Source: Haematospirillum sp. H1815
Lineage (GTDB): Bacteria; Pseudomonadota; Alphaproteobacteria; Rhodospirillales; Rhodospirillaceae
NCBI RefSeq assembly: GCF_012102705.1
Contig: NZ_JAAVTA010000002.1
Location: 1-64,000, forward strand
DNA length: 64,000 bases
Direction: 5' to 3'
Within the stretch, counting starts at the first letter, position 1; every line of letters begins with the position of its first letter. Below, piece by piece: positions 1-28,397 of the stretch. The notes under the pieces were generated by a model, which worked only from the letters and a program-made list of their open reading frames with translations, did not search any database and was not told the origin of the DNA. The position numbers and the translations under genes were made by a program.

Positions 1-305
1 ACACGGTCGTCCACGTATCCCTTCCGTCTCTTCACTCTGAAAAACAGCACCGACAATCAAAAAACCAGAAATTCCAGTCCCTCAACGTCGGGACGCACCT
101 TCTAAGCCCCAAATCAAAAACCGTCAACACAATTCATTAAACTAAGATCAAAAAAATGCATCATCCCCCAAGGGGCGTGGGCGTTATAGGGCATGACTGC
201 AATCACATATCGTCAACCTTCGTGGTTGTCTCTGGGTATCAGTGTCGATAGTATCACCGCTTACGCGCGTCAGGCTGTGTTTGTGTTTGGATAAGGATCA
301 TCAGG
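1..305. other. Intergenic region upstream of the M23 peptidase gene
   Basis: No convincing coding sequence or RNA gene is visible; the short frames here lack recognisable protein character. The stretch is A/C-rich up to about 170, then carries a short CCCC/GGGG inverted repeat near 167-177. It presumably holds the promoter of the gene starting at 306, but I could not pick a confident -35/-10 pair. Confidence 0.5.
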
Positions 306-1682
306 GTGCGGCACGGAAAACCGGTTATCTTTGCGACAGTTGGAATGCTTTTTGGCGCTGCTGCTGTACTGGTTGCCTCTCATCTTTCCACGCCCGCCCC
401 ACAACATCTGTCTTCCCAACGCAAAAAATCATCCATCACTGCCGATGCTCAGGTACCAATTGTTGCCGGACCCCGTAGCTTTTCGATGGCATCCCCACCG
501 CCCTCTTCCGGCAGTGACACCATCACTTCAAAAGCGGCGCATCCGTCACCTGCTACGCCCCGCATACATACGGTCAAGATAGAACAGGGCGACACCCTGA
601 TGGGTGCCTTGATATCAGCTGGCGTGGAACGGCAAGATGCCCATTCAGCCATCGAAGCCTTGCGTAGCGTCTATGATCCACGTTCTCTGCGTGTTGGTGA
701 TGAAATAACAGTTACATTCGACGAACCTGAAAACCAACACCAGTCGTTCCAGGGTTTTTCCCTTGAGCCCAGCCCTGCCTTCAAGGTGCAGTCTTCCCGG
801 AGTGACGACGGTAGCTTCTCATCGTCATCAATCAAGACCCCACTCAATGACGAAATGGTCCGGATTGAGGGCGACATTGGAACAAGCTTGTTTGCAGCAG
901 CGGGTGAAGCTGGTGTGCCGGTTGATATCATACAGAACCTGATTAACATCTTTTCTTATGATGTCGACTTTCAACGCGACATACAGAAAGGGGATCGATT
1001 TGCTCTGCTTATCCGGCGCAAGATAACCCCACGGGGTGAGCCGGTTGGTGATGCCGTTCTGCTTTATGCGGCCATGACGCTCTCAGGGCGGACAACAGCC
1101 CTGTGGCGCCACGAAAGTAAAGACGGACGGATCGATTACTTCAACAGCAAGGGCGAGAGTGTTCGGAAGGCACTGCTCAGAACTCCGATCAATGGGGCCA
1201 GGCTGACATCAGGTTTTGGTACCCGCGTGCACCCTGTTCTTGGGTATTCCCGTATGCACAAGGGTGTTGACTTCGCCGCGCCCCGCGGCACACCCATTTA
1301 CGCGGCCGGTGATGGCGTCATTGAAATTGCTGGCTTCAAGGGAAGCTATGGCAATTACGTTCGTTTGCGCCATAACAACGAGTACGCTACCGCGTATGCC
1401 CACATGTCTGCGATCGGCAAGGGTATAGCAACGGGCAAGCGTGTCCGGCAGGGGGAGGTTATTGGCTACGTAGGAACAACAGGCCGTTCGACAGGCCCAC
1501 ACCTGCACTACGAAATCATGAAAAGAGGCAAACAGGTCAACCCGCTTGGTGTCAAGTTCCCAACGGGGAATGTCTTGGCTGGCGCTGAGCTGAGACGCTT
1601 CCAGGGGCAGCGGGCTACGATGGAGAAGGTGTATGCAGATCTTCCTGTCGGTATGAACAGGAAGCTTGCACGCGCACACTAA
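306..1682 (+). CDS. M23 family metallopeptidase (membrane-anchored peptidoglycan endopeptidase)
   Basis: A 458-residue protein with an N-terminal membrane segment (about residues 7-25), a Ser/Thr/Pro-rich linker, an OapA/LysM-like middle region (about 75-240) and a C-terminal LytM/M23 domain (about 295-410). The zinc site is complete: H318 and D322 in HKGVD and the H399-L-H401 motif. Family knowledge: such enzymes cut peptide cross-links of peptidoglycan, or act as NlpD/EnvC-like amidase activators when the site is degenerate; here the site is intact, so enzymatic activity is expected. The start is GTG at 306, preceded by AAGGA near 293. It is the only plus-strand gene before a bidirectional terminator and looks monocistronic. 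The cellular partner is not evident from context. Confidence 0.9.
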   Translation: MRHGKPVIFATVGMLFGAAAVLVASHLSTPAPQHLSSQRKKSSITADAQVPIVAGPRSFSMASPPPSSGSDTITSKAAHPSPATPRIHTVKIEQGDTLMGALISAGVERQDAHSAIEALRSVYDPRSLRVGDEITVTFDEPENQHQSFQGFSLEPSPAFKVQSSRSDDGSFSSSSIKTPLNDEMVRIEGDIGTSLFAAAGEAGVPVDIIQNLINIFSYDVDFQRDIQKGDRFALLIRRKITPRGEPVGDAVLLYAAMTLSGRTTALWRHESKDGRIDYFNSKGESVRKALLRTPINGARLTSGFGTRVHPVLGYSRMHKGVDFAAPRGTPIYAAGDGVIEIAGFKGSYGNYVRLRHNNEYATAYAHMSAIGKGIATGKRVRQGEVIGYVGTTGRSTGPHLHYEIMKRGKQVNPLGVKFPTGNVLAGAELRRFQGQRATMEKVYADLPVGMNRKLARAH

Positions 1683-1699
1683 CGCCTCCCTGCCTGATC

Positions 1700-1730
1700 A
1701 AAAAAGCCCCCTGCAAAAGGGGGCTTTTTT
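1700..1730. terminator. Bidirectional rho-independent terminator
   Basis: A perfect stem of A6-GC5 (1700-1711) against G5C-T6 (1719-1730) with a 7-nt loop. T and A tracts flank both sides, so it can end the plus-strand M23 gene and the minus-strand DUF4167 gene, whose stop codons lie 18 nt and 30 nt away. Confidence 0.9.
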
Positions 1731-1759
1731 ACTCGCTCAGAAAAGAAACAGACCGATCA

Positions 1760-2596
1760 TCATGCCTCAGCCTGTTCTGTCGATACAGGATCAACAGCAA
1801 CACGGGCCACTGCACGACGACGACGCGGCTTTCTGACGTCCGTTGTTGATACATCTGAAGCAGCCGTATCAACGTCACTAACACGAGAAACCGTCTCTTC
1901 CTGATGGATAGCGGGGGCGAGGGCGGGAGCTGGCGCGGGTGCAACAACGTCAGGACCAGCCTGATCGACCTCACTTGGCATAACAACAAAAGGCTGGGCC
2001 TCACTGCCAAGCACCGGAGCAGAGAAAACCTCCCTCTCACGGACAGGATGCTCATCATTACGCCGGTTTCTTGCGTCACCACGTCGATCGGAACGGGGGC
2101 GGAAATCAGCATCTCGCGGACGTCGCGGACGCGACTGTCCCTCATTGCCAAATTCAGAAGATGCCTCTTCCAAGGCAACACCGGGATCAGTAACAGATCC
2201 CGTACTACCTGCAAGACCAACGGCTTCAACCGTTGCTTCCTGCAAATCTTCACCGTCCTCGTAAAACTCGTCCGGGCCCTCCAGGGCTTGCCCCTGATCA
2301 AGCCTCATAACCGAGCGCTGCGGATTGTTCTGATTGATGGCGAGAATAATGCGGAGATAGTGCTCTGCGTGCTGAAGATAGTTTTCGCACAGCAGGCGAT
2401 CACCCAAAGCAGCCGCATCACGGGCCAATGCCTGATACTTCTCAACAACCTGATGCGCATTTCCGCGCACACGAACACCCGGTCCGTTGCTGTCATACAC
2501 TTGGTTGCGCGATGGCCCCCGTCCCTTGTACATCTGGGACTGGGGCTGGTTATTGCGGCCGCGCATGCGGCCCTTGCCGTTCGAGCCTGGCTTCAT
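1760..2596 (-). CDS. DUF4167 domain-containing protein
   Basis: About 278 residues. The N-terminal part (roughly 1-85) has the DUF4167 pattern: an Arg/Gly/Asn-rich start, then the block with NAHQVVEKYQALARDA and the HAEHYLRI segment. The rest is acidic and Arg-rich low complexity, ending in an Arg cluster and a disordered tail, which suggests nucleic-acid or ribosome association (inference). The frame stays open upstream to 2836, but similarity begins at the Met at 2596, so I use that start; the ribosome site there is weak (GGAG very close to ATG), and the start is the least certain part. In many alphaproteobacteria this family follows prmC, as here, though 374 bases separate them. Function unknown. 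Confidence 0.82.
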   Translation of the reverse strand: MKPGSNGKGRMRGRNNQPQSQMYKGRGPSRNQVYDSNGPGVRVRGNAHQVVEKYQALARDAAALGDRLLCENYLQHAEHYLRIILAINQNNPQRSVMRLDQGQALEGPDEFYEDGEDLQEATVEAVGLAGSTGSVTDPGVALEEASSEFGNEGQSRPRRPRDADFRPRSDRRGDARNRRNDEHPVREREVFSAPVLGSEAQPFVVMPSEVDQAGPDVVAPAPAPALAPAIHQEETVSRVSDVDTAASDVSTTDVRKPRRRRAVARVAVDPVSTEQAEA

Positions 2597-2970
2597 GACT
2601 CCATCAACATCAAGAATTCGACCTCCCGTTCGGGGAGCGTCCCGTTTATTCACGAATCCCGCAATGGCACAACAGGAACCCACAACCGGAAAACAACCGG
2701 CACACGCCATGCAGGATAATGATTTTCGCGTGGTACTCGCCCGGGGCGTCCGTAAGGACACGTACGCAACGACAACCAGTCTGAAAAAATTCGGATCTCC
2801 GGATCTTTCTGTATTTTGATTGACTTCACGATACACGCCACGTTCGACGTGTTTACCCCCGGCGCCTCAGCGCCTTGCATCACCTCTAACCCTAAGCGGG
2901 TCTGCTCTCTCTTCCAAGCTCTTTTTTACAGTTATCCTTTCTTTTTTTTCACAAACCGCCCTTCCCATGA
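2597..2970. other. 374-base gap between prmC and the DUF4167 gene
   Basis: I see no gene of convincing character. The only notable structure is a GGCGC-CTCA-GCGCC hairpin at about 2860-2873 with no T tract. It may carry a separate promoter for the DUF4167 gene, but no clear -35/-10 pair stands out on the minus strand. The frame of the DUF4167 gene remains open through much of it, so an N-terminal extension cannot be fully excluded. Confidence 0.4.
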
Positions 2971-3831
2971 TCAAGAACCCCCTGAAACAGAAGCCAAGCA
3001 ACGCTCCACTCCCCCCAAATCACTGTACCGTGTCGGCACAGAAAAACCATGAGCCGTGAACAGAGCCGCAACGGCATCAGCCTGCCCGATCCCGACCTCC
3101 ACAGCCAAAAGACCATCAGGAGGAAGCAAACGGGCGGCATCCGGGATCAAGGCCCGATAACACCCCAGCCCATCCTCATCTGTACCCACCAAGGCAAGAG
3201 CGGGGTCATACAGACGGACCTCAGGCTCAAGAGCGGCTATATCCGATAGCGGAATATAAGGCGGGTTGGACACAATAACATCAAACGTCCCGGCAAGGCT
3301 CTGCCCCCAGGAACCCACGATAAAAGATGCCCTGTCACCAACGCCATTGGCATGCGCATTACAAAACGCCATCGCCGCCGCTGCGGGAGCAAGATCGACA
3401 CCAACCCCATACGCATGGGGCAATTCACGCAACAGGGCAACAAGGATAGCCCCGCTCCCGGTTCCCAGATCCAGAATGCGTAAAGGCACGTCCGGATCTG
3501 GGATGTTGCGCAGAACAGCGTCAACAAGCGTTTCCGTATCGGGCCGCGGGTCGAGTGTTGCCGCGTTCAGGGCCAGCTCCAGCGTCCAGAAACCACGATG
3601 CCCTATAATCCGCGCCACAGGCTCCCGCGCTTCACGACGCTGAACGAACGTTTCAAGCACCTCCTGTTCCGCGACAGATACAAGGCGATCCGGATACAGC
3701 GACAAGGAGCGCGCTGATAATCCGGTCGCAGCGGCTATCAGTTGACGCGCGTCAAAACGCGGATTATCGACCCCCGCTGCATCCAGACGGCAGGTTACCG
3801 TTTGCAGAACCTGACCTAACGGCTCTTCCAT
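2971..3831 (-). CDS. prmC: Peptide chain release factor N5-glutamine methyltransferase
   Basis: 286 residues, normal for PrmC (HemK). It methylates the Gln of the GGQ motif in release factors, using S-adenosylmethionine, in the cytosol. Visible marks: a helical N-terminal domain (about 1-80) that recognises the release factor, SAM motif I DLGTGSGAI at 121-129, and the catalytic NPPY tetrad at 189-192. Its substrate gene prfA lies 3 bases upstream on the same strand, so the two are surely cotranscribed. Confidence 0.96.
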   Translation of the reverse strand: MEEPLGQVLQTVTCRLDAAGVDNPRFDARQLIAAATGLSARSLSLYPDRLVSVAEQEVLETFVQRREAREPVARIIGHRGFWTLELALNAATLDPRPDTETLVDAVLRNIPDPDVPLRILDLGTGSGAILVALLRELPHAYGVGVDLAPAAAAMAFCNAHANGVGDRASFIVGSWGQSLAGTFDVIVSNPPYIPLSDIAALEPEVRLYDPALALVGTDEDGLGCYRALIPDAARLLPPDGLLAVEVGIGQADAVAALFTAHGFSVPTRYSDLGGVERCLASVSGGS

Positions 3832-3834
3832 GCC

Positions 3835-4887
3835 TCAATCCAGCTCGGCCAGACGCGCAGCTTGGTCATCGGCCATCAAAGCATCAATAAACTCGTCCAG
3901 ACCATCTCCCTGCATCAGGCGGTCGATAGTGTAGGTTGTCATGTTGATCCGGTGATCCGTCACCCTGCCCTGCGGGAAATTATAAGTCCGGATGCGCTCC
4001 GACCGATCACCGGACCCCACCTGGGACCGACGGTCTGCAGCCCGTTCAGCCTCGGCTCGGCGGCGCTGGCTGTCGTACAGGCGAGCCCTCAACATCATCA
4101 TGGCTTTTGCGCGGTTCTTGATCTGACTGCGCTCTTCCTGACAGGCAACCACTACACCGGTCGGGATATGGGTAATCCGGACGGCTGAATCAGTGGTGTT
4201 CACATGCTGGCCGCCAGCACCCTGGGACCGATAGGTATCGATACGGAGGTCCTTGTCCTCAACCTGAACATCCACCTCCAACGCTTCGGGTAGAACTGCA
4301 ACCGTTGCCGCAGACGTATGAATACGCCCCGATGATTCCGTTTCCGGTACACGCTGTACACGGTGCACACCGGATTCATACTTCAGACGACCAAAAACAT
4401 TGCGTCCGCTGATACGGGCAACCGCCTCGCGGTACCCGCCCAAACCCGTTTCGTTGGCATCCAGGATTTCAAATGACCACCCATGCATGGCGGCATAACG
4501 GTCATACATACGGAACAGGGTCGCTGCAAACAGGGCCGCCTCTTCCCCGCCCGTCCCGGCACGGACTTCCAGAACGGCGTTGCGGCTGTCAGCTTCATCA
4601 CCGGGCAGAAGAGCAATGCGTACGGCCTGCTCCAGATCCGGTAACAGACGCTTAAGGCGGTGGTATTCTTCCTCGGCCAGATCCTTCATCTCGGGGTCTG
4701 ACAGCAGGCTCTCAGCATCCTGGAAAGCCGAGCGGACATCACGAAAGGCACGGACCTTCTCAACGACAGGATCCAGCTCCGAAAGCTCCTTGGACAGGCG
4801 AGCAACATCGGCACCGGGCTGTTGCAACAGGGCAGAAATTTCATCATGGCGGGCCAGAACCCGCCCCAGCTTCTCATCAAGACTCAC
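3835..4887 (-). CDS. prfA: Peptide chain release factor 1
   Basis: RF1 reads UAA and UAG and triggers peptide release. With the GTG start at 4887 it has 350 residues, close to the family norm; a longer open frame reaches 5022 but would overlap hemA deeply and has no homologous N-terminus. Seen: the codon-recognition tripeptide P-E-T at about 181-183 (RF1 type, not the SPF of RF2) and the catalytic GGQ at 225-227, substrate of PrmC encoded next. The start lies 7 bases after the hemA stop, with AAGGA overlapping the end of hemA. Confidence 0.96.
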
Positions 4888-21778: not shown

Positions 21779-22554
21779 TGACAAAGAAGACACAAGACCA
21801 TTCCAAAAAAGCGACCAAGGAACGCATTGACCAGATGCTGGTGGACCGCGGCCTGGTCGAAAGCCGGACACGCGCCCAGGCCTTGGTGATGTCTGGCCTG
21901 GTTCTGGTTGATGGGCACCGCGTTGACAAACCGGGAACCCGTGTTGCCCTGGACCAGACAATCGTCCTGAAAGGACAGGATCACCCTTGGGTCTCACGCG
22001 GGGGCTTGAAGCTGGACAAGGGGCTGGGGGTTTTCAACATTCCCGTTACCGGAAGCACGGCACTGGATGTCGGGGCCTCTACCGGCGGCTTCAGCGATGT
22101 TTTGCTGACCCGGGGGGCATCACGGGTTTATGCGGTGGATGTGGGCTATGGACAGCTGGCTCATCGCCTGCGGACTGATCCACGCGTCGTGGTTCTGGAA
22201 CGAACGAATGCCCGCTATCTGACCACAGATCATATCCCGGAACCCGTTGACCTGGTCGTCTGTGATGCCAGCTTCATTGGCCTGCGGACGGTACTGGAAA
22301 CACCCCTGACCTTCCTGAAGCCCGGAGGATATCTGGTTGCGCTGATCAAACCGCAGTTTGAAGTCGGCAAAGAGCGCCTGGGCAAAGGAGGAGTTGTCCG
22401 GGATCCCACGCTGCACCAAGAGGTTTGCGATACCATGCATGCATGGCTGACGGCACAACCCGGATGGGCTGTTCTGGGTATAACGGAAAGCCCCATCCGG
22501 GGGCCGGAAGGAAATATAGAGTTCCTTCTGGGAGCACAGCGACTCCCAACCTGA
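21778..22554 (+). CDS. tlyA: TlyA family rRNA (cytidine-2'-O)-methyltransferase
   Basis: 258 residues: N-terminal S4 RNA-binding domain (about 15-75, RIDQMLVDRGLVESRTRAQALVMSG in sense) and FtsJ/RrmJ-like methyltransferase domain with LDVGASTGGFSDVLL as SAM motif I and PVDLVVCDASFI. Homologues methylate 16S/23S rRNA; the hemolysin name is historical. Follows dxs at one gene's distance. Confidence 0.92.
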   Translation: MTKKTQDHSKKATKERIDQMLVDRGLVESRTRAQALVMSGLVLVDGHRVDKPGTRVALDQTIVLKGQDHPWVSRGGLKLDKGLGVFNIPVTGSTALDVGASTGGFSDVLLTRGASRVYAVDVGYGQLAHRLRTDPRVVVLERTNARYLTTDHIPEPVDLVVCDASFIGLRTVLETPLTFLKPGGYLVALIKPQFEVGKERLGKGGVVRDPTLHQEVCDTMHAWLTAQPGWAVLGITESPIRGPEGNIEFLLGAQRLPT

Positions 22555-22606
22555 AAAGCCCGGCGAGGGGTATGAATTGCGTATGCCACACCCCTCATCA
22601 CCGCTC

Positions 22607-24388
22607 CTAAAATCCTTCAGAAGAAGGAGCCATCAGAACAGCCGGGCTTCGTCCGATAGCACGCTGACGTTCAATCCCGGAAACAAACGGCTTTACAATC
22701 GGTTCCAGGGTACCCAGATAGCTCAACTGACGCATGCCATGCGCCGACCCGCCAAAGACAGCCAGAATCTGCTCCCATTCTGTTTTCGGGGCCGGAAATG
22801 GAACCAGCTCGATCTCTGCATCTTCGGAAATACCGGCGGCCTCCCGCGCCAGGCGCACGGCCGTACCAAAACCGCCAAGGGCATCAACCAGGCCGACAGC
22901 TTTTGCATCATGGCCCGACCAGACCCGGCCACGGGCCACATGGTCCACCTGATCGGGTGCGAGACCACGCCCCTGAGCCAATTTTCCGGTAAAATCCGTA
23001 TAGATGGCATCAAGAGAGCGATCGAACCAGGCGCGTTCTTCCGGCGTGAACTTGCGATTCGGACTCAGCATCAAGGCCCCGGATCCTGTCTCGACCCGCG
23101 CCCAGGAAACACCCAGCTTGTCCCACAGCCCAGACACCACTGTCTTGCCCGAAAACACGCCGATAGAGCCTGTTATTGTCCCCGGATTTGCAACAATCGC
23201 ATGCGCGGGCATGGACAGGAAATAGCCACCTGACGCAGCATATTCGCCCATACTTACAACCAGGGGGATGCCTTTTTCCTTGGCCCGGGCCACCTCGCGC
23301 CAGATGGTATCACTGGCAACAGCATCACCACCGGGGCTGTTGATCCGCAGGACAATGGCCTTGATATCCGGATCATCCACCGCACTGCGAATAGCCCCCG
23401 CAACCGTATCGGAACCAATACTGTGTGTTCCGGACATGGTTCCATCTTCACTTGCCCCGGCATGGATGACACCAACCCCGTGAATCAGGGCAATACGCGA
23501 AGCATGCGGCGATGGAGGCGCTATTGCACCGGCAAGGTAATCATCCAGCGACACCTCCTTGTCAGTGCCTGCTGCGCTGTGTACAGCATCCATGAACTCA
23601 TCCAGATACCCGATGGTATCAACCAAGCCAGCATCCTTTGCTTCACTGGCAAACAGGGGGGGACGAGCCGCCAATGCCTCTACGGATGCCCGTTCAATGC
23701 CTCGCCCGGAAACAACCGCATCAAGCAACTGGGACTGCCAAGAATCCAGCAAAGCACGCAGCGAGGCCCTGTGCGGCTCACTCATGTCATCGCGCACCAA
23801 GCTGTCCATCGCCGTTTTATATTCCCAACGGCTTGCAAACTCATGCTCGATACCGATTTTTTCCAGGGCAGACTTCAGGAAAGGCACCTCGACACCAAAA
23901 CCTGTTAGACCCAAGGTCCCTGAAGGCTGCAACCAGATTTCCGAGAAACCCGATGCCAGAAGGTATTCTGCACCGCCACCATTGGATTGCCCAAGAGTCT
24001 CGGCAAAGGCAAAAGCCGGTTTGCCCGAAGCACGAAAGCGCGCGATCGCGTCGCGCAGTTCCTGCGCTTCCGCCATACCACGCCCGGCATCACCAATACG
24101 GGCCGTCACCGCCTTGACCCTGGGGTCCGCAGCCGCACGATCTAGGACAGTGACAATATCGACCAGCGAGACTTGCGGCTCGAACAAATGATCAAGATGA
24201 ACCTCTGGCAATTCCGGCGTTGGATAATCCAGGGACAGGGACAAAATCATCTCCGAAGGCAGATCAGCCGATCGGGAGAAAGAAGGCCCCAGACGAGATA
24301 CACCAAGCACAAGAACAACAGATAAACTGACAAAAACAACGCCGCACAGAGCCAATGCCCACAACAACGCCCTACCAAAAATACGCAT
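22607..24388 (-). CDS. sppA: Signal peptide peptidase SppA, 67K type
   Basis: 593 residues, the long two-domain form. One N-terminal membrane anchor (about 7-30), then two ClpP/crotonase-like domains. The dyad is split: Lys191 in the first domain (WEYKTAMDS) and Ser386 in the second (GEYAASGGYF), equivalent to K209 and S409 of the E. coli enzyme. Digests leftover signal peptides in the membrane. Convergent with tlyA; divergent from the ROK gene. Confidence 0.93.
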   Translation of the reverse strand: MRIFGRALLWALALCGVVFVSLSVVLVLGVSRLGPSFSRSADLPSEMILSLSLDYPTPELPEVHLDHLFEPQVSLVDIVTVLDRAAADPRVKAVTARIGDAGRGMAEAQELRDAIARFRASGKPAFAFAETLGQSNGGGAEYLLASGFSEIWLQPSGTLGLTGFGVEVPFLKSALEKIGIEHEFASRWEYKTAMDSLVRDDMSEPHRASLRALLDSWQSQLLDAVVSGRGIERASVEALAARPPLFASEAKDAGLVDTIGYLDEFMDAVHSAAGTDKEVSLDDYLAGAIAPPSPHASRIALIHGVGVIHAGASEDGTMSGTHSIGSDTVAGAIRSAVDDPDIKAIVLRINSPGGDAVASDTIWREVARAKEKGIPLVVSMGEYAASGGYFLSMPAHAIVANPGTITGSIGVFSGKTVVSGLWDKLGVSWARVETGSGALMLSPNRKFTPEERAWFDRSLDAIYTDFTGKLAQGRGLAPDQVDHVARGRVWSGHDAKAVGLVDALGGFGTAVRLAREAAGISEDAEIELVPFPAPKTEWEQILAVFGGSAHGMRQLSYLGTLEPIVKPFVSGIERQRAIGRSPAVLMAPSSEGF

Positions 24389-24543
24389 GACATCTCCCTG
24401 AAAGGATCAACCGGAATTGACGGACAACGCAAAAAGAAGCATTCCGGCAATTGACCCGCCCTGTAGTATGCAGCAAAAGTGGCAGTTGACGGACAGAAGT
24501 GCAAGCTTGGTCCACCAAGGTGTCAGAGAAGAGGGTTTCGTTC

Positions 24544-25506
24544 ATGCCTCATCCACGCATCGGCATCAGTCTTGGCCATAACAGCTTTGATGTTCTGGCT
24601 CTGACGACCAACGACTTTGTGCTGACGCGCGAACAGCACCCCCTGACATCGCCATCCTACCACGACAGACTGCAAGCGATGGCCAGCCGGGTCAGAATGC
24701 TGGACCGGGAATATGGAAAGGGAAGCCTTGGTGTCGCCATCCCTGGCAGCATCACACCAGACAGCGGACATATCCGGACATCACCTGTTCAGGACTTGAT
24801 TGGCCACACGATGCTCCTTGACCTTGCCGCAGCGATTGGACGTCCGGTGCGCATTGCCAGCGATGCAGACTGCATGGCGCTGTCAGAAACGATGGATGGT
24901 GCCAGTGCGGGCCTGTACTGCTGCTTCCATGCCATTCTGGACCACGGTGTAACCGGTTGCCTGACCATCGGAAACCGTATCCTGAGTGGCCCTAATGCCT
25001 TGGGGGGAGAATGGAGCCACAACCCTATTCCATGGCCACGGGAATGGAAACACGCCGACGAACGACCCGGCCCGGACTGTTACTGCGGACTGACAGGCTG
25101 CACAGAAACGTTTCTGTCAACGCATGGCTTGATGGATGACCACGCAAAGGCAACGGGCATGATGCTGCCATGGCCTGATATTGCTGCATCGGCCACAGCC
25201 GGGGATCCTGACTGCCTGGAAAGCATGCAACGCTATGCAGACAGGCTGGCCCGGGCCCTGTCCATTATCGTCAATCTGGTTGACCCCGATGCCATTGTGC
25301 TGGGCGGTGCCCTGTCGGACATAGACTGGCTGTATGAAAAGCTTCCCCTGCTGTGGTCCGGTTGGGCGCTGAGCAACACGACAAGAACCCGTTTATGCAA
25401 AGCTGCACACGGGGCCGACAGCATTGTAAGGGGAGCATCACTGCTGTGGGATTGCCCGGATCAGGTTCGCCCCCAACCGGCCCTGCTCCTCCATCCGGCA
25501 GACTAA
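24544..25506 (+). CDS. ROK family protein, Mak/fructokinase-like, with degenerate ATP loops
   Basis: 320 residues, alignable over its full length with E. coli Mak (fructokinase): IPGSITPDSG, catalytic-Asp region SDADCMALSE (Asp at about 107), GGEWSHNPIPWP, the zinc motif C179-Y-C181-G-L-T-G-C186, and NLVDPDAIVLGGALS. However the N-terminal phosphate-1 loop, normally DLGGTK, reads SLGHNSFD (about 9-16), and the phosphate-2 loop, normally GTGCGAG, reads LDHGVTGCL (about 132-140). The zinc site is intact. It may be a non-catalytic sugar-binding relative (inference). The ATG at 24544 gives the homologous N-terminus; the frame opens at a GTG at 24499. Confidence 0.82.
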   Translation: MPHPRIGISLGHNSFDVLALTTNDFVLTREQHPLTSPSYHDRLQAMASRVRMLDREYGKGSLGVAIPGSITPDSGHIRTSPVQDLIGHTMLLDLAAAIGRPVRIASDADCMALSETMDGASAGLYCCFHAILDHGVTGCLTIGNRILSGPNALGGEWSHNPIPWPREWKHADERPGPDCYCGLTGCTETFLSTHGLMDDHAKATGMMLPWPDIAASATAGDPDCLESMQRYADRLARALSIIVNLVDPDAIVLGGALSDIDWLYEKLPLLWSGWALSNTTRTRLCKAAHGADSIVRGASLLWDCPDQVRPQPALLLHPAD

Positions 25507-25511
25507 ACGCC

Positions 25512-26369
25512 CTATAGGGCACAGTCCGGCGCCGGGGGAGGATGGACCTCGACGAGCGTACCGCGCAGGCTGAACGTGCCAAAATTCTGCAGCAGGCTTT
25601 CGGCTATGCCATTATTCCGGTAACGCAGGGACACCTCGAAATCAGGAACACCGCCGCCGTTGGCCGGGTTGAAAAATGCCAGAACAATCGGCCACCCCCC
25701 ACCTTTCAGCAAGGCATTACCGGGAAGAACGGAAGAAGCCTGATCAGGGAACGGGTTGCCAACAGCAGCCGACAGATCAAAGGCGGGTCCGATGATGGAA
25801 CCATCAAAAACGGGACGGGCCAGGAAACGCCCCCCATTACGGGCCTGCCGGAAGAGAAGGTCTGTGTGTGCTGCCGGAAACAGCGTACCCGGGGATAGAT
25901 CAAAAACAACGTCCTGCTGGTCTCCCTCTATCCGGAAAATGGCACTGCCAACCCCGGCAGGGGGCATCCGCGCTTCCCCTTGATAGGCATCAAGAACCTC
26001 CCCATCCCGCATGTTCTGGACGGAAAAGCGGTAGGACTGGCCATCCTTGCTTTCCCACGACATAAAGTCCCAGCTGGACGACACCGCATCCCCCTGACTC
26101 TGGAACAGGGTAAGATCCGTGCGGGTCTTGACCTTCCATGCTGTACAGCCATCCTCAAAAGTATAGCGCATGGTCCCCGAAGCCCCGACAATCCCCGAAG
26201 AAGAACGGGCCGAGTGCAGCTCCATCCGATACACGGCAGCGTGGGGCACAAGGCTGGAGCCATTCGATGGAACAACAGGCTTTGACCAGACCGCAACAGA
26301 AAAGCCGGCACCTAGGAAGGGCCCGACAACACAAGATATCAAAGCTATTCTCAGATGACGCCCATACAT
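25512..26369 (-). CDS. EipB-like cell envelope integrity protein (DUF1849)
   Basis: 285 residues from the ATG at 26369, with an N-terminal signal peptide or anchor (about 5-25). The mature part has the DUF1849 features: FEDGCTAWKVKTRTDL near the N-terminus, repeated beta-strand segments, and a terminal Cys (PDCAL). EipB of Brucella is a periplasmic beta-spiral protein with a disulfide between two such Cys, needed for envelope integrity (family knowledge). Upstream open frame to 26558 has no homology. Convergent with the ROK gene (5-base gap). Confidence 0.84.
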   Translation of the reverse strand: MYGRHLRIALISCVVGPFLGAGFSVAVWSKPVVPSNGSSLVPHAAVYRMELHSARSSSGIVGASGTMRYTFEDGCTAWKVKTRTDLTLFQSQGDAVSSSWDFMSWESKDGQSYRFSVQNMRDGEVLDAYQGEARMPPAGVGSAIFRIEGDQQDVVFDLSPGTLFPAAHTDLLFRQARNGGRFLARPVFDGSIIGPAFDLSAAVGNPFPDQASSVLPGNALLKGGGWPIVLAFFNPANGGGVPDFEVSLRYRNNGIAESLLQNFGTFSLRGTLVEVHPPPAPDCAL

Positions 26370-26506
26370 GGCAGAGTTCCTGCGTCCTGCCCCTTGGCCG
26401 AAACAATGACGACCTAGAATGGTGCAGTTCAAAGGATTTGCCAAGTCAGCTCCACGCCCGGGAATGGGCTGCGCGTCTGTTTTCCTGGGAGTGTTGCATA
26501 AACGCA

Positions 26507-26540
26507 AGCCTCCCCGGGGCATGTATAACCCGGGGAGGCT
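26507..26540 (-). terminator. Rho-independent-like terminator after aspS
   Basis: AGCCTCCCCGGG (26507-26518) pairs perfectly with CCCGGGGAGGCT (26529-26540) around a 10-nt loop. On the minus strand it lies 34 bases past the aspS stop and is followed by TTGCGTTT, a weak T tract. It separates aspS from the EipB-like gene. Confidence 0.7.
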
Positions 26541-26573
26541 CGGACACATAAGGATCAAGGCAGGGGAAGAACT

Positions 26574-28397
26574 CTATGCACCAGCAGCACTGGCCGGGGC
26601 TGTTCCGCCCTTCTGGACCTCGATCTTTTTCGGCAGCTGGAGACGAATATGAAGCTCGCGCAGCTGCTTCTCGGTGACCTCTGAAGGCGCCTGCATCAAA
26701 AGATCCTGAGCCTGACCGTTCATCGGGAACAGGATAACCTCGCGGATATTGGGCTCGTCGGCCAGCAGCATCACCATACGGTCAATACCCGGCGCCGCAC
26801 CACCATGCGGAGGCGCCCCGAACTTGAAGGCATTCAACATGCCGCCAAACTTCTCTTCGACCACATCAGGGCCATAACCGGCAATCGCAAAGGCCTTGTA
26901 CATAATATCCGGCAGGTGGTTACGGATGGCACCGGAAGACAGCTCTATCCCGTTGCAAACGATGTCATACTGAAATGCCTTGATATCCAGCGGATCCATG
27001 GTCTCCAGAGCGTTCATGCCGCCCTGGGGCATGGAGAACGGGTTGTGGCTGAATTCGATCTGGCCGGTATCTTCGTTGCGCTCGTACATCGGGAAGTCAA
27101 CCGTCCAGCAGAACCGGAAAACGCCCTGTTCGCGCAGCGACAGGTCATCACAGACCCGTTCCCGCACCTTGCCGGCAAACTTGGCAGCACCCAGTGTCTT
27201 GTCGCAGACAAAGAACACCGAATCACCATCCTGAAGGCCACAGGCATCCTTGATGGACTGCAGGCGATCGGCTTCCAGGTTCTTGGCAATCGGGCCTTTC
27301 GGGCCATCGGCGGCAAACTGGACATAGCCAAGGCCACCCTGCCCTTCCTCACGGGCCCATTCATTCAGCTTATCATACCAGCCCCGCGGACGGGCGGCTG
27401 CACCGGGAGCCGGAATGGCACGGACCACGCTACCAGCTGCAACGCCACGGGCAAAAATCCCGAAACCGGAATCGCGGAAGGCATCGGTCACATCGGTAAT
27501 CAGCAGCGGGTTCCGAAGATCCGGCTTGTCCGACCCGTACTTCAACATGGCGGTATCATAGGGGATACGCTCGAACGGCATGGGCGAAACCGCTTTGCCA
27601 CCAGAGAACGACACAAACAGGTCATGCAGGACCGGCTCGATGGCGTTGAACACATCCTCTTGGGTGACAAAGCTCATTTCAAAATCAAGCTGGTAAAACT
27701 CACCCGGCGAACGGTCAGCACGGCTGTCTTCGTCACGGAAGCAGGGCGCAATCTGGAAATAGCGATCAAAGCCAGCGACCATCAACAGCTGCTTGAACTG
27801 CTGCGGGGCCTGGGGCAACGCATAGAATCGACCCGGATTCAGACGGCTGGGAACCAGGAAATCACGGGCCCCCTCGGGGCTGGAGGCCGTCAGGATCGGG
27901 GTCTGGAACTCGTTGAAACCATCAGCCGTCATACGCTGACGCAACCAGGCAATCACCTGCGAACGCAACAGCATGTTGGCATGGACTTTCTCGCGCCGCA
28001 GATCAAGGTAGCGATAGCGCAGGCGGGTATCCTCGCCAAAATCTTCGGTACCGGCGACCTGCATCGGCAGTACCTCGGCCCGGGACTGTACGGCAATATC
28101 GCGGACCCGCAGCTCTACTTCACCTGTGGTCAGACGGGCATTGACTGTTTCGACTGAACGAGCCACCACATCCCCGGTCACCGTCACCACGCTTTCCGGC
28201 CGCAGGGTTTCAAGAACCCGGAAAATCTCCGAAGATACATCGGTCACGCACTGGGTGATTCCGTAATGGTCACGCAGGTCGACAAACAGCAGGTTGCCGT
28301 GGTCACGCTTGCGGTGAACCCAACCGGACAGCCGCACCTGCTGGCCCACATGCTCCTTGCGGAGATCGCCACAGGTATGGGTACGGTACGCGTGCAT
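26574..28397 (-). CDS. aspS: Aspartyl-tRNA synthetase
   Basis: 607 residues from the ATG at 28397, typical of the bacterial class II enzyme: N-terminal OB fold ([26 protein letters not shown]), motif 2 with [24 protein letters not shown], the bacterial GAD insertion, and motif 3 with GIDRMVMLL. Many alphaproteobacterial enzymes of this type also charge tRNA(Asn); that cannot be decided here. AGAGG lies 9 bases before the start; the frame continues to 28616 without homology. Confidence 0.96.

Follow-up and report, generated by a model that had tools for sequence, protein, structure and literature searches.

The window analysed here is a stretch of 64,000 nucleotides from Haematospirillum sp. 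H1815 (contig NZ_JAAVTA010000002.1, positions 1 to 64,000). Within it, an ORF encoding a 320-residue protein of the ROK family stands alone, with a divergent gene on one side and a convergent gene on the other (Table 1). Scans of this locus for a sigma-70-like promoter and for a terminator found nothing, and no Rfam RNA elements were found within 22000-28000.

The protein matches the ROK profile PF00480 over nearly its full length (154.5 bits against a curated cut-off of 22.9; model positions 2-291 of 294). Its closest NCBIfam model is the fructokinase PRK09557, matched at 245 bits over positions 3-301 of 303, a score that does not reach the equivalog cut-off of 443 bits. Judged by these profiles, the protein is closest to the Mak-type fructokinases. 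A preliminary description of the locus had placed this ORF correctly and had read its loop, zinc and catalytic-aspartate motifs as we find them; the alignment with a ROK kinase throughout, which it had made by eye, is borne out by both profile matches. ROK is the sole domain in the 320 residues. Profile searches show no HTH, and the NagC model is matched from position 82 of 399, in agreement with the earlier statement that this is not a NagC-type regulator. A genome-wide search found no second ROK protein.

Table 1. Features of the ROK locus, in positions of the window
Feature	Position	Strand	Description
Intergenic stretch between divergent sppA and the ROK gene	24389..24543		150/155 bases identical in the second species
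Putative ROK pseudokinase ORF	24544..25506	+	320 aa; predicted to descend in place from a ROK (fructo)kinase of Mak type; ATG at 24544, stop ends at 25506
Former phosphate loop 1	24568..24591	+	S9-L-G-H-N-S-F-D16 replaces D-L-G-G-T-K-I-E (orthologue alignment)
Former K-N-A-N-S loop, residues 78-82	24775..24789	+	Now R-T-S-P-V (orthologue alignment)
S106-D107	24859..24864	+	Catalytic Asp retained, sugar-binding Asn changed to Ser; roles as described in PMC10031466
Former phosphate loop 2	24940..24960	+	D133-H-G-V-T-G-C139 replaces G-T-G-V-G-G-G (orthologue alignment)
E156-W-S-H159	25009..25020	+	Sugar-contacting Glu and shared sugar/zinc His retained
Zinc motif	25078..25101	+	C179-Y-C181-G-L-T-G-C186 (orthologue alignment)
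eipB-like gene (PF08904)	25512..26420	-	Convergent neighbour of the ROK gene; profile match

Phosphate loops, zinc site and sugar cleft

In the first phosphate loop, the acidic metal ligand of the D-x-G-x-T motif is absent, with Ser at position 9, and in the second loop D-H-G stands in place of G-T-G. The predicted zinc ligands C179, C181, C186 and H159 are all retained in the sequence alignment (4/4), as are the catalytic base D107 and residues E156 and E188. Beyond both loops, and beyond what the preliminary description had noted, the protein carries N106S beside the catalytic Asp, G256A, G294I and a changed K-N-A-N-S loop. There is also a 4-residue insertion at about residues 168-171 (25045-25056), after the E-W-x-H motif and before the zinc cysteines, which is absent from the other aligned orthologues displayed.

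We compared the two known Haematospirillum copies with 107 orthologues belonging to the same order, 52 of them within the family and 55 outside it. Within the family, matches were present in 57 genomes, from which we left out 2 of the genus itself and 3 fragments (G064, G024 and G054); a weak second match of G038 was also left out. Outside the family, the best 55 of 193 matching genomes were aligned, so that the 107, being drawn from the highest-ranked matches, do not form a random sample and could miss a more distant loop-less relative. Certain orthologue translations read past a stop at the far end, following tblastn.

Among these orthologues (52 plus the best 55 of 193), the loop-1 residues D9, G12 and K14 and the loop-2 residues G133, T134 and G137 are each present in 107 of 107, and all are changed in Haematospirillum. 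The earlier claim that both phosphate loops are lost, with the zinc site and catalytic Asp kept, is thus confirmed against the whole set. At 78 near-invariant positions (97% conservation), Haematospirillum retains 52 residues and loses 26; when each orthologue is left out in turn, the worst of the others loses 5, with a mean of 0.73. Loss is more frequent within the two loops (8 of 13 near-invariant positions, versus 18 of 65 elsewhere; Fisher P 0.023). The near-invariant equivalents of the metal and phosphate contacts D6, G9, K11, T132 and G255 of Plesiomonas shigelloides NagK (PsNagK) are all changed (5/5, chance 0.003), and retention of the four zinc ligands is not significant (chance 0.19). 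Haematospirillum has acquired four residues of ligand type that set it apart from the other orthologues, H12, D133, H134 and C139, and they are identical in its two species.

Neither a hidden frameshift nor an assembly artefact accounts for the altered loops, since no kinase motif appears at either loop in the two alternative frames (three of these four readings contain stops) and a separate assembly, that of the second species Haematospirillum sp. H4485 (L032; G011), has the same loops.

PsNagK provides the functional reference for these positions. As described in PMC10031466, its D6 coordinates the catalytic metal, and D6A and D6N are without detectable activity; T10, K11 and T132 hold phosphates, and T10V and T132V lower kcat more than tenfold. 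In pairwise and family alignments, D6, T10, K11 and T132 correspond to S9, N13, S14 and H134 here. The sugar contacts of PsNagK, N104, D105, E154, H157 (also a structural zinc ligand) and D187 (PMC10031466), correspond to S106, D107, E156, H159 and E188, and a hand count on the alignment places S80 at the sugar-contacting S78. Read in this way, the sequence suggests that the metal and phosphate contacts are gone, that the zinc site is whole, and that the sugar side is mostly kept. Because the D6 mutants of PsNagK lack measurable activity, catalysis is almost certainly dead here, and the protein would have no kinase activity. The mutant data and the 107 orthologues together lend support to the pseudokinase reading of the preliminary description. 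In PsNagK, N104D raises the KM for GlcNAc from 98 to 4400 uM, about 45-fold (PMC10031466), so N106S probably weakens sugar binding in the Haematospirillum protein; by this analogy, N106S and the changed 78-82 loop together should weaken or alter it.

Single-sequence fold prediction gave a pLDDT of 38.4. A structure model from a four-row alignment was moderate (mean pLDDT 64.4, pTM 0.61; 1 of 5 models), and its top structural matches are ROK kinases, the best being NagK 7p7w (Z 23.5, rmsd 7.3, 286 residues). At the level of this predicted model the two-domain ROK fold is confirmed, and the geometry of the altered cleft is not.

Descent and selection

In 21 of the 31 loci from other genera, the ROK gene lies no more than 1.5 kb from eipB, an arrangement most simply explained by vertical descent. 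Horizontal import is argued against both by this adjacency and by an ordinary GC3 of 0.623 (five neighbours, 0.554-0.683). The place of the Haematospirillum protein in the tree is unclear, blurred by its long branch: in a midpoint-rooted tree the stem measures 1.11 substitutions per site, versus 0.45 for the next longest. Mean identity of Haematospirillum to 11 relatives is 45% for ROK versus 55% for GlnE, and among those 11 relatives (55 pairs) it is 66% for ROK versus 57% for GlnE. The ROK protein therefore changed fast on the Haematospirillum stem.

The gene is absent from the three relatives nearest by GlnE (G018, G019 and G003, the last 81% complete), suggesting that this section of the family tolerates loss of the kinase. 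In G018 and G019, eipB still adjoins aspS, and in G018 its neighbours include an ORF (L051:6576-7214) that encodes a carboxymuconolactone decarboxylase domain. ROK kinases are also encoded on two IMG/VR viral contigs of 169,524 and 42,815 bases (L131:1495-2370 and L132:1495-2337); these relatives are 28-29% identical and have intact phosphate loops.

The copy in Haematospirillum sp. H4485 is 98% identical, and the frame is open in both species. Between them the ORF has a dN/dS of 0.088, a value that rests on one pair, the two genomes of the genus compared, and that ranks 30th of 57 ORFs of the contig (median 0.084). These 57 remained of 75 ORFs chosen, 69 of which gave rows, after we required at least 150 aa, dS >0.05 and identity >0.8, a filter that removes ORFs in wrong frames. 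Codon differences across the gene comprise 31 synonymous and 8 nonsynonymous changes, against an unconstrained expectation of about 70 to 75% nonsynonymous. With kappa varied from 1 to 4, this deficit has a P between 1e-12 and 2e-10 in a binomial test that counts changed codons rather than substitutions (in 5 of the 8 amino-acid codons, two bases are different). Both loops lie within residues 1-196, a segment with 18 synonymous codon changes and a single nonsynonymous one. All 8 amino-acid changes fall at freely varying orthologue columns and none at the 78 near-invariant positions.

Because the altered loops are common to both species, all of the measured divergence came after the loss. The loop loss thus predates the species split, and purifying selection has acted on the gene from then on. 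The preliminary description had asked whether the loss is conserved under such selection, which in these two species it is. It had also held that orthologues with intact loops would point to strain-specific decay: the orthologues compared from outside the genus are indeed all intact, but two species have the loss in common and purifying selection maintains the gene, which contradicts decay.

Possible roles of a probably non-catalytic ROK protein

We propose that a ROK fructokinase of Mak type, passed down vertically next to eipB, would have lost ATP and Mg binding in the Haematospirillum ancestor and then been retained as a non-catalytic protein. With less assurance, we suggest that it may serve as a folded, zinc-stabilised partner docking on another protein, its conformation perhaps altered by a ligand of sugar-like shape in what remains of the cleft. 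The core of this proposal, a protein that is catalytically dead and yet kept by selection, is very likely correct; joined to a contact-based role, it is still a good probability. Haematospirillum ROK probably has a new, non-enzymatic job, and a gene with no recognisable ATP site, HTH, ROK paralogue or operon is most simply read as encoding a non-catalytic partner. With no second ROK protein in the genome, an inactive subunit of an active ROK paralogue is rejected. Conservation shows that the protein matters, not what it does, and retention of the catalytic Asp and of sugar residues might be a sign that some catalytic function persists.

Haematospirillum has Glk, PGI and PFK. Its four PfkB genes are HldE-like, PdxY-like, ThiD-like and one unassigned kinase (L133:267-1262, in G000:C4; best NCBIfam score 101.9 bits against a cut-off of 300). 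Neither Haematospirillum genome has a clear fructokinase among its PfkB genes or a PTS EIIC. The genome G035 also lacks PTS EIIC yet has an intact ROK, so absence of EIIC does not explain the loss. Nothing on sugar use by Haematospirillum was found by term in PMC12704522 and PMC9246461.

Two versions of the partner-protein proposal, to which we give equal weight, differ in whether the cleft still binds anything relevant, and each is offered tentatively. In one, the fold is kept for protein contact or oligomerization and the cleft binds nothing that matters, a possibility with somewhat less than an even chance. Loss of the K-N-A-N-S loop and of N106 and the insertion by the zinc site are consistent with such a scaffold, as is the lack of a clear PfkB fructokinase and of PTS EIIC, which may make free fructose irrelevant to the cell; D107, E156, H159 and E188, however, are kept though no longer needed for catalysis. 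In the other, put forward in the preliminary description, the cleft may bind a hexose and report it to a partner, again a conceivable outcome rather than an expected one. The sugar-contact positions kept except for N106S, the alignment of S80 with PsNagK S78, and the ROK precedents of contact signalling in Mlc and MecR2 all favour this sensor, but the rise in KM in PsNagK N104D (PMC10031466) and the lack of a partner gene nearby speak against it.

Readings in which the protein has kept or gained a site for chemistry fare less well. It is unlikely, as far as the sequence indicates, that the ATP loops were rebuilt into a ligand or metal site and that a freestanding, HTH-less pseudokinase became a genus-specific regulator or another enzyme. 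Very unlikely is a new catalytic or metal site formed at the former phosphate loops by H12, D133, H134 and C139: these residues are gained and are the same in both species, but they are shared by descent, so that their identity is weak evidence, and the structure model is too weak around the cleft for geometry. A kinase still active through an unusual phosphate or nucleotide site is just as improbable, because the catalytic Asp and the sugar-contacting Glu and His are kept but the loop-1 Asp is Ser, a position at which PsNagK D6N and D6A fall below detection (PMC10031466), and all five metal and phosphate positions are changed. Finally, a pseudogene or strain-specific decay, to which the long stem branch, the 26 lost near-invariant residues and the dispensability of the gene in the family (16 of 73 genomes without a match, including the three closest by GlnE) might point, is scarcely credible given the open frame in both species, amino-acid changes confined to variable columns, and a dN/dS near the median of 57 neighbouring ORFs.

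Comparison with known systems

In the literature covered, which left most subscription journals outside its scope, we found no described case of a ROK pseudokinase or noncatalytic ROK protein, and sugar-kinase pseudoenzymes of bacteria that lack a DNA-binding domain seem to have received little description. The general idea has precedent, since plant papers deal with non-catalytic hexokinase-like proteins. Surrounded by intact orthologues, with a clear branch of loss and later purifying selection, the Haematospirillum gene offers a clean natural experiment in the passage from a metabolic enzyme to a non-catalytic protein. It also cautions against annotating this ROK gene as a fructokinase.

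Among enzymes, the protein resembles the Mak-type ROK fructokinases (PRK09557) of Rhodospirillales in its full-length alignment, zinc motif, catalytic Asp and frequent eipB neighbour. It differs from them in the phosphate loops, N106, the K-N-A-N-S loop, 26 of 78 near-invariant residues, and a score of 245 bits where the model asks for 443. PsNagK (7P7I and ligand complexes) is the best solved match by both sequence and model and largely shares the sugar and zinc residues, but it has D6, T10, K11 and T132 where the Haematospirillum protein has S9, N13, S14 and H134.

Among regulators, NagC and Mlc have the ROK fold in common with the Haematospirillum protein, but theirs is preceded by an N-terminal HTH and the Haematospirillum protein starts directly at the ROK domain. 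Mlc and NagC signal by ligand and protein contact, without phosphorylating. A Mlc/EIIB complex, as identified by its entry title, is among the structural matches of our model, as is the MecR2 structure 4IJA, at 15% identity. MecR2, a homologue of XylR, itself a sugar repressor, makes direct contact with the repressor MecI (PMC3406092, a paper in which the term ROK does not occur). By structural match MecR2 has a ROK-like fold, and it acts by binding another protein, as proposed here, but it derives from a XylR-type repressor and lies in an operon with its target, whereas the Haematospirillum protein would derive from a kinase. By analogy, then, the closest precedents appear to be ROK proteins that act by protein contact, Mlc and MecR2.
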